Source of the DNA: Endozoicomonas sp. OPT23
GTDB lineage: Bacteria; Pseudomonadota; Gammaproteobacteria; Pseudomonadales; Endozoicomonadaceae
Reading direction: 5' to 3'
DNA: 64,000 bases
NCBI RefSeq assembly: GCF_009653635.1
Contig: NZ_PPFD01000005.1
Location: 248,001-312,000 of the forward strand
Positions 5,220 through 8,819 of this stretch are shown piece after piece. The translations under genes and the position numbers were made by a program. Position 1 is the stretch's first letter; each line of letters opens with the position of its first letter. The notes under the pieces are model-generated. The model did no database searches and was not told where the DNA came from. It worked only from the letters and a program-made list of their open reading frames with translations.

Positions 5220-7379
5220 ATGACCGTTAACATCAGTGGCTTTAACTACAATAAAGACGCCGACGGTATTGTAACCGTCACCATGGACATGGCCGGCCCG
5301 GTCAATGCCATGACCGATGAATACCGTGAAGGTATGGAAGCTCTGCTGAACCAGCTGGAGTCCGAAGAAAATCTGGCCGGTGTCGTACTGGCTTCAGCCA
5401 AGGACGTATTCTTTGCCGGTGGCGATCTGAACGATCTGGCCAATGCAGAGCCAGGCAATGAAGAGTACTACCTTAACGAACTCGAGAAAGTAAAAGCGCA
5501 CTTCCGTCGTCTGGAAAAACTGCCAGCGCCTGTTGTTGCTGCGATCAATGGTGCGGCTCTTGGCGGTGGCTGGGAACTGTCTCTGGGTTGTAACTACCGT
5601 ATTGCCCTGAACGACCCAAAGATTCAACTGGGTCTGCCTGAAGTAAGCCTTGGCTTGCTACCAGGAGCTGGCGGTATCGTTCGTACCGTTAACCTGCTCG
5701 GTGTACAGAATGCTCTTCCTTATGTGATGGAAGGCAAGCAGGTTAATCCAGCCAAAGCATTAAAAGCGGGTCTTGTGAACGAGCTGGTTGAAAGCCGTGA
5801 AGAACTGGTCACCCGAGCCAAAGCATGGATTCAGGAAAACAAGGACAACGAAGACGCTGGCAAGCAGCCATGGGATCGCAAAGGTCACAAGATTCCTGGC
5901 GGCAGCTCTAACGACCCACACGTTGCCCAAATGCTGGTTATGGCACCTGCCATGCTGCGCATGAACACCAAGGGTCTGTTGCCTGCCCCTGAGCGTATTC
6001 TGGATGTAGCCGTTGAAGCCGGTCGTCTGACTTTTGATGCTGCTTTGAAAGTAGAAAGCAGTGCCTTTGTCAGTCTGGTGATGTCGCCTGTTGCCAAAAA
6101 CATGATCAATACTTTCTTCTTCCAGATGAACCAGGTCAATGGCGGCGCCAGTCGTCCAAAAGACATTGCCAGAAGCAAGGTCAAGAAAGTAGGTATTCTC
6201 GGTGCCGGTGTTATGGGTCAGGGAATTGCTCTGGTTTCTGCCATGAACGGCATCAAAGTGGTTCTGAAAGACCTGAGTCAGGAAGCGGCTGATAAAGGTA
6301 AGGCTTATTCTGACAAGGTTCTTTCCAAGAAAATCAAGAAAGGTCGTATGACCGAAGAGGAGAAAGAAAGCATTCTTTCTCTGATCAAGGCTACTGACAA
6401 TAATGAAGACCTTCAAGGCTGTGACTTCATTATTGAAGCCGTCTTTGAAGACATTAACCTGAAGAAGAAGATCATTGCTGAAACCGAGCCTTTCCTGGCT
6501 GAAAACGGCACCTTTGGTTCTAACACCTCTTCTCTGCCCATTGGTCGTATGGCGGAGGTCAGCCTGAAGCCTGAGAACTTTATTGGTATCCACTTCTTCT
6601 CACCGGTTGATCGTATGCCGCTGGTGGAAATCATCTGCGGAGACCAGACCAGTCCGGAAACTCTGGCCAAGGCCTTCGATTACGCTCAGCAGATCAAGAA
6701 GACACCGATCGTTGCCAGCGACTCTTACGGTTTCTTCACTTCCAGAACCTTTGGTTCCTACCTTGATGAAGGTATGCACCTTCTGAAAGAAGGTTTCCAT
6801 CCGGTTGCTTTGGATAACCTGGCTCAGTCCATCGGTATGGCACTGGGTCCACTGGCAATCTTTGACGAAGTCAGCCTGCACAGCTCCATCAATGCGGCGA
6901 AATCTGCAACAGAGCTGGGTCTACTTGACAGCATCAGTGATGGCTCCCTCGCTCGCGGTGTAATCGAAACCATGGTGAACGACAAGGGTCGTGGTGGTCG
7001 TCATCACGGCGGTGGTTTCTATCAGTACAACGAAGATGGCAGCAAGGAAATCTGGTCCGGATTGTTTGATCTCTACTACAACGAAGAAGTAGATATCAGC
7101 AAGGAAGACGTTCGCGATCGTCTGCTGTTCCGTCAGGTAATTGAAGCTCTGAAAGGTCTGGAAGAAGGTGTCGTTCATTCCGTAGCGGATGCCAATATCG
7201 GCACCATTATGGGCATCGGTGCTCCTGCCTGGACCGGTGGTTATGTTCAGTTTGTAAACACTTATGGCCTGCAGAAGTTTGTACTGCGTTGTAATGAGCT
7301 GGCAGATAAGTACGGTGAGCGCTTTAAGGCTCCGGCTATCGCTATTGAGAAAGCTGAGAAGAATGAACTATTTGTTTGA
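5220..7379 (+). CDS. Multifunctional beta-oxidation protein (enoyl-CoA hydratase / 3-hydroxyacyl-CoA dehydrogenase)
   Basis: A 719-residue alpha-subunit type protein of the FadB/FadJ family. The crotonase domain occupies about residues 10-200, with oxyanion-hole glycines in AGGDLNDLA and NGAALGGGWELSLG and the catalytic Glu in LGLPEVSLGLLPGAGG. The NAD-binding dehydrogenase domain begins near residue 322 with GILGAGVMGQG, and its catalytic His is in GIHFFSPVDRMP near residue 457. The C-terminal dehydrogenase repeats fill the rest. A strong ribosome site (GGGAGA) precedes the ATG. It probably acts with the thiolase just upstream. The order thiolase then alpha subunit is the reverse of E. coli fadBA, so I give no gene symbol. 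Confidence 0.92.
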   Translation: MTVNISGFNYNKDADGIVTVTMDMAGPVNAMTDEYREGMEALLNQLESEENLAGVVLASAKDVFFAGGDLNDLANAEPGNEEYYLNELEKVKAHFRRLEKLPAPVVAAINGAALGGGWELSLGCNYRIALNDPKIQLGLPEVSLGLLPGAGGIVRTVNLLGVQNALPYVMEGKQVNPAKALKAGLVNELVESREELVTRAKAWIQENKDNEDAGKQPWDRKGHKIPGGSSNDPHVAQMLVMAPAMLRMNTKGLLPAPERILDVAVEAGRLTFDAALKVESSAFVSLVMSPVAKNMINTFFFQMNQVNGGASRPKDIARSKVKKVGILGAGVMGQGIALVSAMNGIKVVLKDLSQEAADKGKAYSDKVLSKKIKKGRMTEEEKESILSLIKATDNNEDLQGCDFIIEAVFEDINLKKKIIAETEPFLAENGTFGSNTSSLPIGRMAEVSLKPENFIGIHFFSPVDRMPLVEIICGDQTSPETLAKAFDYAQQIKKTPIVASDSYGFFTSRTFGSYLDEGMHLLKEGFHPVALDNLAQSIGMALGPLAIFDEVSLHSSINAAKSATELGLLDSISDGSLARGVIETMVNDKGRGGRHHGGGFYQYNEDGSKEIWSGLFDLYYNEEVDISKEDVRDRLLFRQVIEALKGLEEGVVHSVADANIGTIMGIGAPAWTGGYVQFVNTYGLQKFVLRCNELADKYGERFKAPAIAIEKAEKNELFV

Positions 7380-7401: not shown

Positions 7402-7500
7402 GTTGGGAAAGTGTGGTGTATTTACCGCTCAACTGGGCTCCTGCCCAGATTCGCTAGCAGGCCATCCGTGGCCTTTGAAAGTACACCACACTCCCCCAAC
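7402..7500 (-). repeat. Cloverleaf-like structured repeat, copy 1
   Basis: Outer arms 7402-7420 and 7482-7500 pair at 17 of 19 positions. Inside are two perfect hairpins: 7433-7438 with 7443-7448 (loop TCCT) and 7459-7464 with 7469-7474 (loop TCCG). Read on the minus strand the loops are AGGA and CGGA, and the single-stranded joints are TTTCAAA, CTAGCGAATC and TTGAGCGG. The same joints appear in the same order in the element at 7553-7643 on the plus strand, while the stem sequences differ completely. I do not recognise a known repeat family. It lies inside the operon, between the multifunctional protein and the racemase gene. Confidence 0.75.
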
Positions 7501-7552
7501 TCAGCTCATCACACGTATTAAAAGTTCGTAATAAGCCAGTTGAAGACTTGGT

Positions 7553-7643
7553 GTGAGGGTTATGTTTTCAAAAGACCAGGGACTGGTCTGACTAGCGACT
7601 CCTGACCATGGATGGTCAGTGGAGCGGAAAACATAACCCTCAC
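7553..7643 (+). repeat. Cloverleaf-like structured repeat, copy 2
   Basis: Outer arms 7553-7569 and 7627-7643 are a perfect 17-bp inverted repeat. Inside are two hairpins: 7573-7579 with 7583-7589 (loop GGA) and 7602-7608 with 7613-7619 (loop TGGA). Joint sequences are TTTTCAAA, GACTAGCGACTC and TGGAGCGG, matching those of copy 1 in the opposite orientation. In the transcript of the racemase gene this element would lie about 50 bases upstream of the start codon, in its 5' leader, with GGA in both apical loops. Confidence 0.75.
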
Positions 7644-7694
7644 TTCCCGCCATAGGCACAATCCAAAAAAAACAATAATAATTGGAGAAATCTG

Positions 7695-8819
7695 ATGGGT
7701 CCCTTGAAAGGATTCAAAATCATCGAACTGGCCGGCATAGGCCCTGGTCCTTTCTGTGGCATGCTGCTGGCAGATATGGGCGCGGAGGTTATTGTCGTTG
7801 AACGCGCCAGTGCCAGCTATACCACACCGGATGTTACCCGCCGTAATAAGAAGTCCATCGCACTGAACCTGAAAAGCAAAGACGGTCTCGAAACCCTGCT
7901 TAATCTGGTAGAAGGTGCTGATGCGATCTTTGAAGGTTACCGTCCGGGTGTTGCTGAACGATTGGGTGTAGGTCCTGAGGACTGTAAAAAACGTAACCCG
8001 AAAATTGTCTATGGTCGTATGACCGGTTGGGGCCAGGATGGACCACTGTCGCAGGCTGCAGGCCATGATATCAACTATATCTCTCTGACCGGCTCTTTGT
8101 ACGCCACAGGTCGTAAGAATGACAAGCCTGTGCCTCCGCTGAACCTTGTCGGCGATTATGGCGGTGGCGCCATGTTTCTTGCCGTAGGTATTCTGGCTGG
8201 ACTGCTGGAAGCTCAAAACACCGGTAAAGGTCAGGTAGTGGATGCCGCCATGACGGATGGTTCAGCTCTTCTGATGGCAACCTTTAACAGCTTCCATGCC
8301 ATGGGTATCTGGAACACCCAGCGCGGCAACAATATGCTCGACGGTGGCGCCCACTTTTACGACACCTATGAAACCCAGGATGGCAAATACGTGTCCATCG
8401 GTTCCATTGAACCCCAGTTCTACAGCCTGCTAATCGAGAAAGCCAACCTTGACCCAGCAGTGTTCAGTGACCAGCACAATATGGGCAAGTGGGACGAGTT
8501 CAAAGAGAAACTGGAAACCATTTTCAAAACCAAAACCCAGTCAGAATGGTGCGACATTATGGAAGGCAGCGATGTCTGCTTTGCGCCAGTGCTGAACTTC
8601 CTGGAAGCACCTTCTCACCCGCACAATGTCGCACGACAGACATATATCGACGTTGAGGGTATGACACAGCCAGCGCCAGCACCAAGATTCAGCCGTACAC
8701 CTTCCGAGGTTAAGCACGGTTCAAAACAGGCTGGTGTAGACACTGAAGCTGTCTTGAGTGACTGGGGTTTTCCTGACGACAAGATACAAAAACTGAAAAA
8801 AGACGGTGCTTTCAGTTAA
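7695..8819 (+). CDS. Alpha-methylacyl-CoA racemase (CaiB/BaiF family)
   Basis: A 374-residue class III CoA-transferase-fold protein that best fits alpha-methylacyl-CoA racemase, which interconverts 2R and 2S methyl-branched acyl-CoA. Compared with the characterised mycobacterial enzyme MCR, whose catalytic residues are His126, Asp156 and Glu241, this protein has His124 (AAGHDINYIS), Asp154 (LVGDYGGG) and Glu239 (GSIEPQF), all shifted by the same two positions. The CoA-binding N-terminal block GPFCGMLLADMGAEVIVVE is conserved. A GGAGA ribosome site precedes the ATG. Such racemases are needed for degrading the side chains of sterols, bile acids and pristane-like lipids, which is the main reason to think this operon handles branched substrates. 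Confidence 0.88.
   Translation: MGPLKGFKIIELAGIGPGPFCGMLLADMGAEVIVVERASASYTTPDVTRRNKKSIALNLKSKDGLETLLNLVEGADAIFEGYRPGVAERLGVGPEDCKKRNPKIVYGRMTGWGQDGPLSQAAGHDINYISLTGSLYATGRKNDKPVPPLNLVGDYGGGAMFLAVGILAGLLEAQNTGKGQVVDAAMTDGSALLMATFNSFHAMGIWNTQRGNNMLDGGAHFYDTYETQDGKYVSIGSIEPQFYSLLIEKANLDPAVFSDQHNMGKWDEFKEKLETIFKTKTQSEWCDIMEGSDVCFAPVLNFLEAPSHPHNVARQTYIDVEGMTQPAPAPRFSRTPSEVKHGSKQAGVDTEAVLSDWGFPDDKIQKLKKDGAFS

Follow-up and report, generated by a model that had tools for sequence, protein, structure and literature searches.

The window, by which we mean the whole 64-kb stretch of DNA that was analyzed, contains two structured elements between a gene with enoyl-CoA hydratase and 3-hydroxyacyl-CoA dehydrogenase domains, which we take to be fadB-like, and a gene of the CoA-transferase family III (Table 1). 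Both elements were confirmed at the positions given by the first-pass annotation, which had described them from the letters alone. Copy 2 is placed between copy 1 and the CoA-transferase gene, and the two copies face each other 5' end to 5' end. The strand bearing the GGA loops (the GGA strand) is the minus strand in copy 1, antisense to both adjoining genes, and the plus strand in copy 2, in agreement with the opposite orientations that had been claimed.

Inverted-repeat searches and RNA folds bear out the layout of an outer stem with two inner hairpins in each element. The arms of the outer stem are 86% complementary in copy 1 and 100% complementary in copy 2, and the GGA strands fold with -55 and -49 kcal/mol, respectively (z-scores of -6.3 and -8.6; none of 200 shuffles was equally stable). 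Along the GGA strand, the outer stem is followed by a CAAA joint, hairpin 1 with a GGA loop, the joint CTAGC, a G.A/A.G tandem, a covarying pair, hairpin 2 with its own GGA loop, the joint GAGCGG, and the return arm of the outer stem. The tandem, as read from the sequence, is located in the stem beneath hairpin 2, where GCGA... and ...GAGC are opposed, and the pair after it is A-U, C-G or G-C; the first-pass annotation had mentioned neither. The joints CTAGCGA-TC and GAGCGG and the GGA loops are shared by copies 1 and 2 on opposite strands. The claim that all stem arms differ and nevertheless pair stands as regards covariation, but the inner stems are not wholly different (GGCC versus GACC). 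A curated Rfam search of the 64-kb window returned zero matches.

Table 1. Features of the locus, in window coordinates.
Feature	Position	Strand	Basis
Upstream gene, enoyl-CoA hydratase / 3-hydroxyacyl-CoA dehydrogenase domains	5220..7379	+	ORF and domain match
Copy 1, three-way-junction element	7402..7500	- (GGA strand)	inverted repeat, fold, model R1 (89.8 bits)
Copy 1 outer stem arm A, pairs with 7479-7500	7402..7423	-	inverted-repeat search
Copy 1 hairpin 2, loop GGA 7439-7441 (-)	7433..7448	-	read from sequence
Copy 1 joint CTAGCGAATC, tandem G.A side	7448..7457	-	motif search
Copy 1 hairpin 1, loop GGA 7465-7467 (-)	7460..7473	-	read from sequence
Copy 1 outer stem arm B	7479..7500	-	inverted-repeat search
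Spacer, 52 nt, separating the head-to-head copies	7501..7552		sequence, inverted-repeat search
Copy 2, family member	7553..7643	+	inverted repeat, fold, model R1 (73.7 bits)
Copy 2 outer stem 5' arm, pairs with 7627-7643	7553..7569	+	inverted-repeat search
Copy 2 hairpin 1, loop GGA 7580-7582	7573..7589	+	sequence
Copy 2 joint CTAGCGACTC	7592..7601	+	motif search
Copy 2 hairpin 2, loop GGA 7610-7612	7602..7619	+	sequence
Copy 2 outer stem 3' arm	7627..7643	+	inverted-repeat search
Downstream gene, CoA-transferase family III	7695..8819	+	ORF and domain match

A compact covariance model of 91 positions (R1) was built from 15 copies, with window copy 2 and L017 omitted from the seed alignment on account of indels. 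In the 4.9-Mb genome (G000) the model identifies 25 copies of one dispersed family, 12 on the plus and 13 on the minus strand, the weakest with an E-value of 1.5e-13. The motif CTAGCGA..TC alone is not significant in the window (2 seen versus 1.04 expected, with 2 reached in 30 of 100 shuffles); combined with GAGCGG, it gives 17 matches in the genome (8 forward, 9 reverse) versus 1 for a reversed-pattern control, which upholds the conserved joints. Among 37 genomes comprising this one and its relatives, 10 have an R1 match at E 0.01 and 27 have none. Besides the 25 copies here, 29 are found in Parendozoicomonas haliclonae (G022), which belongs to another genus, 10 in a genome of the same genus (G001), four in a member of another family (G028), two or three in each of five other genomes, and a single weak one in G019; G004 has three matches, all weak and short. 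Copies are likewise present in Sansalvadorimonas verongulae and Parendozoicomonas sp. Alg238-R29. A class-wide sample under stricter filters gave R1 matches in 4 of 369 genomes, this one included, and a Hansschlegelia match (L169) that the model did not confirm was treated as chance. The search of the genome and its relatives that the first-pass annotation had proposed thus yielded further copies and conservation in relatives, the lack of which it had named as the point against the elements. That they form a dispersed repeat family, as it had suspected, is established and near certain.

Several members depart from the common form. Two copies of G022 (L102:1501-1642 and L103:1501-1641) share a similar extra structured insert of ~50 nt in the core, which forms a separate hairpin and contains an inverted GGA-type motif; they may represent nested elements. 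Short relatives of 64 to 82 nt occur in G004 (L056, L064, L070) and G003 (L065); those of G004 are without hairpin 2 and may be a minimal or decayed form. One copy in G016 adjoins a tandem array of seven tRNA genes (L069:622-1336).

The stems of the family vary in sequence while their pairing is retained. An independent MAFFT alignment of 15 copies shows changes on both sides in 24 of 31 pairs, with 97.0% of cells paired versus 71.0% in shuffled alignments. In the model alignment of 87 matches (80 distinct rows), which leans to structure and includes weak matches, changes on both sides occur in 30 of 31 pairs and 94.4% of cells are paired versus 61.6%. The same is seen at orthologous sites. 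Nine of the 10 copies in G001 adjoin the same genes as copies in G000, and across the 162 outer-stem pairs of these nine sites, 44 changed on both sides with pairing kept, compared with a mean of 11.3 and a maximum of 21 in 2000 trials with shuffled substitutions. The remaining positions comprise 80 unchanged pairs, 15 pairs with a one-sided change that are still paired, and 23 that are unpaired in one or both genomes. Because the paired changes exceed the shuffled null, the stem is retained while its sequence is free to change, although recombination that brings a different copy to a site could mimic such changes.

The strand under constraint can be approached through stem mismatches, as an A.C on the GGA strand is a G.T on the opposite strand. 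Across all 18 outer-stem pairs, G.T outnumbers A.C on the GGA strand in G000 (33:6), G022 (42:11), G001 (15:4), and Sansalvadorimonas together with the Parendozoicomonas sp. (7:0), and equals it in a mixed set of other genomes (11:11). Pairs 4-18 provide a fairer count, since a sequence preference is possible in the three outermost pairs. Over these pairs G.T exceeds A.C by 49 to 14 in G000, G022 and the Sansalvadorimonas group combined (p 1.1e-5; G001 and the mixed set left aside) and by 70 to 28 when every set, with the mixed one and the G001 orthologues, is included (p 2.6e-5). In G000 alone the count is 15 to 6 (p 0.078), the three outermost pairs supplying much of the excess, and in the mixed set no excess is seen (10:10). 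The copies used for these counts, for gene context and for hairpins omit the weak or short L056, L057, L064, L065, L070 and L073 and the G022 copy C61:420-510. Because the mismatches favor G.T on the GGA strand, this is likely the constrained strand, which suggests that it acts in folded, single-stranded form, with RNA as the simplest case. The GGA strand is evenly divided with respect to local GC skew (12:12 over 24 of the 25 G000 copies), so no replication-strand bias is apparent and a replication-linked insertion is unsupported.

The first-pass annotation knew of no named family with this layout, but one exists: TwoAYGGAY (RF01731). In the parts of the literature consulted, it was described in 2010, where a table row gives it as probably RNA, from human gut, gamma-proteobacteria and Clostridiales (PMC2864571), and it still counts as a motif that is little explored and whose function is unknown (PMC2864571, PMC11661157). 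One of its stems contains tandem GAs, its external stem is poorly conserved, and it was proposed, without validation, to bind CsrA (PMC4333381); it is also mentioned in PMC11701678 and PMC7657543. The passages on TwoAYGGAY in these sources do not describe dispersal, a placement at gene ends or the pairing of copies, and the supplement of the 2010 paper may mention copy number.

With a permissive Rfam search, copy 2 matches RF01731 with 28.8 bits at 7538-7658, against a gathering score of 43. The matches in this genome range from 28.8 to 36.1 bits, all below that score, and the four listed at E 0.1 all fall on copies of this repeat. One copy (L024) scores 33.5 bits and is yet absent among those four, and another (L026) aligns over the full length of the model (36.1 bits, E 0.00012 in a 151-base search). 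Elements of G026 and G028 score above the gathering cut-off. Class-wide, 18 of 369 genomes match RF01731, 15 of them above the cut-off and often several times each, and no match was found in 14 control genomes. The two GGA hairpins of TwoAYGGAY are predicted in 24 of 25 G000 copies and in 75 of 83 overall, but in just 6 of 10 G001 copies; the tandem GA in one stem and the poorly conserved outer stem are present as well, the latter covarying freely. Because the copies match RF01731 below the cut-off, the window elements are a divergent relative of TwoAYGGAY RNA.

The GGA loops had been put forward as a lead to CsrA, and they do fit the CsrA/RsmE consensus. Of 83 cores, 81 contain one or more matches to CANGGANG or CAGGAN(N)G, the pattern of an A(N)GGA loop closed by C-G, on the GGA strand, and 1 does so on the reverse strand; two or more matches occur in just 45. 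In the work consulted, the SELEX consensus of CsrA is RUACARGGAUGU, CsrB repeats read CAGGA(U/A/C)G and ANGGAN hexaloops are reported (PMC7652899), and an ANGGAX hexaloop is set directly on a stem (PMC4005645). The SELEX ligands have stems of mostly ≤4 pairs, and a very stable structure may disfavor CsrA (PMC7652899); the hairpins here are often longer than these favored stems. A CsrA gene was found in 22 of 22 genomes tested, and its presence neither supports nor refutes the reading because these include two without a copy at E 0.01 (G002 and G008). The 100 nt preceding the GGA strand showed no enrichment of sigma-70-like promoters (mean z of 0.15 in 25 copies and 0.02 in 28), and a dedicated sRNA gene with its own promoter was set aside on this account.

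Our best reading, at a probability of roughly 0.45, is an RNA element that binds CsrA, propagates as a repeat and serves as a distributed titrating set or in local control. The GGA strand would be transcribed, at least at times, and would fold into a three-way junction borne on a long stem of variable sequence. The junction may present a pair of ANGGA loops of the CsrA type, so that each RNA-binding face of the CsrA dimer would receive one, and the long stem would tolerate almost any sequence because its sole need is to hold the core in shape. Jointly, the copies could constitute a distributed CsrA-binding set that titrates the protein, or each could place a gene under local CsrA control. The repeat would spread within lineages by a route other than a resident Y1/REP transposase. 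Binding of CsrA to the elements is plausible, and its titration by them is speculative.

A purely DNA-level palindromic repeat of the MITE or REPIN kind, moved in trans and kept paired by template switching or gene conversion between the arms instead of by selection on RNA, is somewhat improbable but accounts for several of the observations. The missing promoter signal agrees with it, and so do sites that appear to be lineage-specific. A blastn comparison of the 25 own 3-kb loci with the compared G022 loci found no same-site shared flanks, a result that diverged flanks could escape, and at one site (L039) the gene gap measures 12 and 33 nt in G001 and G006 versus about 150 nt with the element in G000; the relatives' sites seen did not fix exact insertion boundaries. 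Against it, the 25-copy genome has no Y1 transposase. The REP-associated partner suggested by the first-pass annotation is rejected for this genome, where PF01797 gave 0 matches at E 1e-5. Nor was the element found in viral contigs (exact pattern) or in plasmids and phages (blastn). Moreover, the G.T/A.C strand asymmetry, in a setting with no replication-strand bias, is unexpected from arm-to-arm copying, and the GGA loops and joints are conserved while the stems of the loops covary. PF01797 has one match in G028; in that genome, an ORF that presumably encodes a RAYT-like Y1 transposase (L097:17737-18171) lies about 4 kb from a head-to-head pair, and no test linked both. The elements at that locus sit among genes that resemble those of branched-chain amino acid degradation, as read from the ORFs.

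The arrangement of neighboring copies also agrees with a DNA-level repeat. Like the window copies, pairs in G022, G028 and Sansalvadorimonas (L172) are oriented 5' to 5'. In nine RF01731-bearing genomes, 24 of the 25 neighbors less than 1 kb apart are head-to-head and one is convergent (G194), among 150 of 151 matches listed; overall, 28 of 31 such neighbors are head-to-head, among the matches listed. The arrangement recurs in five families, according to the taxonomic labels of the genome set. The 24 pairs are not independent, because the 20 that were fetched from five genomes (G122; G194, G305 and G399 of one genus; G277) sit inside larger near-palindromic repeats of, by eye, some 600-800 bp. 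The outer ends of these larger repeats (L223-L233 in G122, L234-L241 in G305, G399 and G194, L242 in G277) recur, for example GACACCCC...GGGGTGTCC, as do motifs inside them, and many of the repeats lie between convergent genes. Same-direction neighbors were seen among weak RF01731 matches below the cut-off, at G024:C6 69020/69625 (row G024:C6:69020-70940) and G126:C40 109/466 (row G126:C40:109-526).

The placement of the copies bears on another reading, which we regard as distinctly unlikely, namely that each element is a hairpin at the 3' end of the upstream mRNA that terminates transcription or blocks decay in either orientation, the core being incidental. It draws on 20 of the 25 G000 copies lying no more than about 60 nt from a facing stop codon and on the sparing of divergent promoter regions. 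Divergent gaps hold 3 of 55 sites in G000, G022 and the mixed set, compared with 49 of 197 background gaps taken from the G000 stretches around copies (p 0.001); in G000 alone the figure is 2 of 24 (p 0.076). Simple hairpins in relatives agree with it further. The window site in G001 and G006 has no elements but one simple hairpin, and of 20 further site comparisons, in our own reading of the folds, 10 show a simple hairpin, two or three a decayed element without core parts, and the rest nothing clear; L041 among them is possibly non-orthologous. The simple hairpins in the fadB-like/CoA-transferase gap of two relatives (L114, L115) differ from one another.

The conserved GGA core, in contrast, is unnecessary for such a role. 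The G+C-rich hairpin followed by a U-run of an intrinsic terminator was not found either, as the consensus flanks, in their composition and not copy by copy, have no T-run beside the stem on either strand. For the gene context, neighboring genes were called mechanically with the element oriented as the plus strand; 7 of 74 copies were omitted for overlap with a mechanical ORF and 67 were classified, two of them with one side unknown. In G000, 14 sites are antisense to both genes, three are on the same strand, five are convergent, two are divergent and one overlaps a called ORF; the antisense bias in tandem contexts is weak in G022 (10 versus 7). With most tandem-context copies running antisense to the genes on either side, the UCC strand would be the one usually found in host mRNAs, a point against the CsrA reading. 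Against the 3'-end hairpin, the asymmetry of the mismatches singles out, in most copies, the strand opposite to the upstream mRNA. The genes next to copies, by reading of their sequences, are mixed housekeeping genes with no functional theme.

Chance hairpins, whose sole point in favor is that the short joint motif is common by itself in the window, are virtually impossible as an explanation and were refuted by the 25 copies at E ≤ 1.5e-13 and by covariation in the MAFFT alignment far in excess of shuffles.

These results provide a genome-scale picture of TwoAYGGAY and its relative in gamma-proteobacteria as a multi-copy repeat that is located mostly at gene ends, is head-to-head where two copies lie close, and has one strand apparently under structural constraint. 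New here are the gene-end placement, the head-to-head rule, the covariation at orthologous sites, the G.T/A.C strand asymmetry and the finding of no Y1 transposase in the genome. Two guesses, a CsrA binder and a mobile palindrome, become testable together, and genomes with 6-30 copies each offer natural sets. If the CsrA reading is true, a repeat family would be directly connected to a global regulator. An extended form of this reading, which we consider unlikely, would make TwoAYGGAY-type elements a self-spreading regulatory repeat of dispersed CsrA-binding modules, some of them head-to-head units that face both neighboring gene ends, so that a genome would hold its capacity for CsrA titration in dozens of mobile units placed at the 3' ends of genes, either replacing or supplementing a single CsrB-like gene.

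REPIN elements are dispersed intergenic palindromes with frequent inverted pairs. The family resembles them, and REP elements as described in PMC2817692, in these respects, but differs from REP/REPIN sequences with a RAYT in its larger three-way-junction unit, its strand-biased mismatches and the lack of a Y1 transposase in this genome. With MITEs it shares a short, non-coding, multi-copy nature and a patchy distribution; unlike in MITEs, the interior covaries, and no parent transposon or target duplication was noticed, though without a systematic search. GGA in C-G-closed hairpin loops and several sites per RNA are features in common with sRNAs of the CsrB/RsmZ type. Each such sRNA gene carries many sites (22 GGA sequences in E. 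coli CsrB, according to PMC7652899), whereas here there are two sites per element over 25 copies, and no promoter signal. Compared with TwoAYGGAY, the elements have joint sequences of their own and a model of 91 positions versus 168 in the Rfam model, and they share with it the free-sequence outer stem, the two inner hairpins with AYGGAY-type loops, the CGG at the 3' joint, and the tandem GA in one stem that PMC4333381 gives for the Rfam family.
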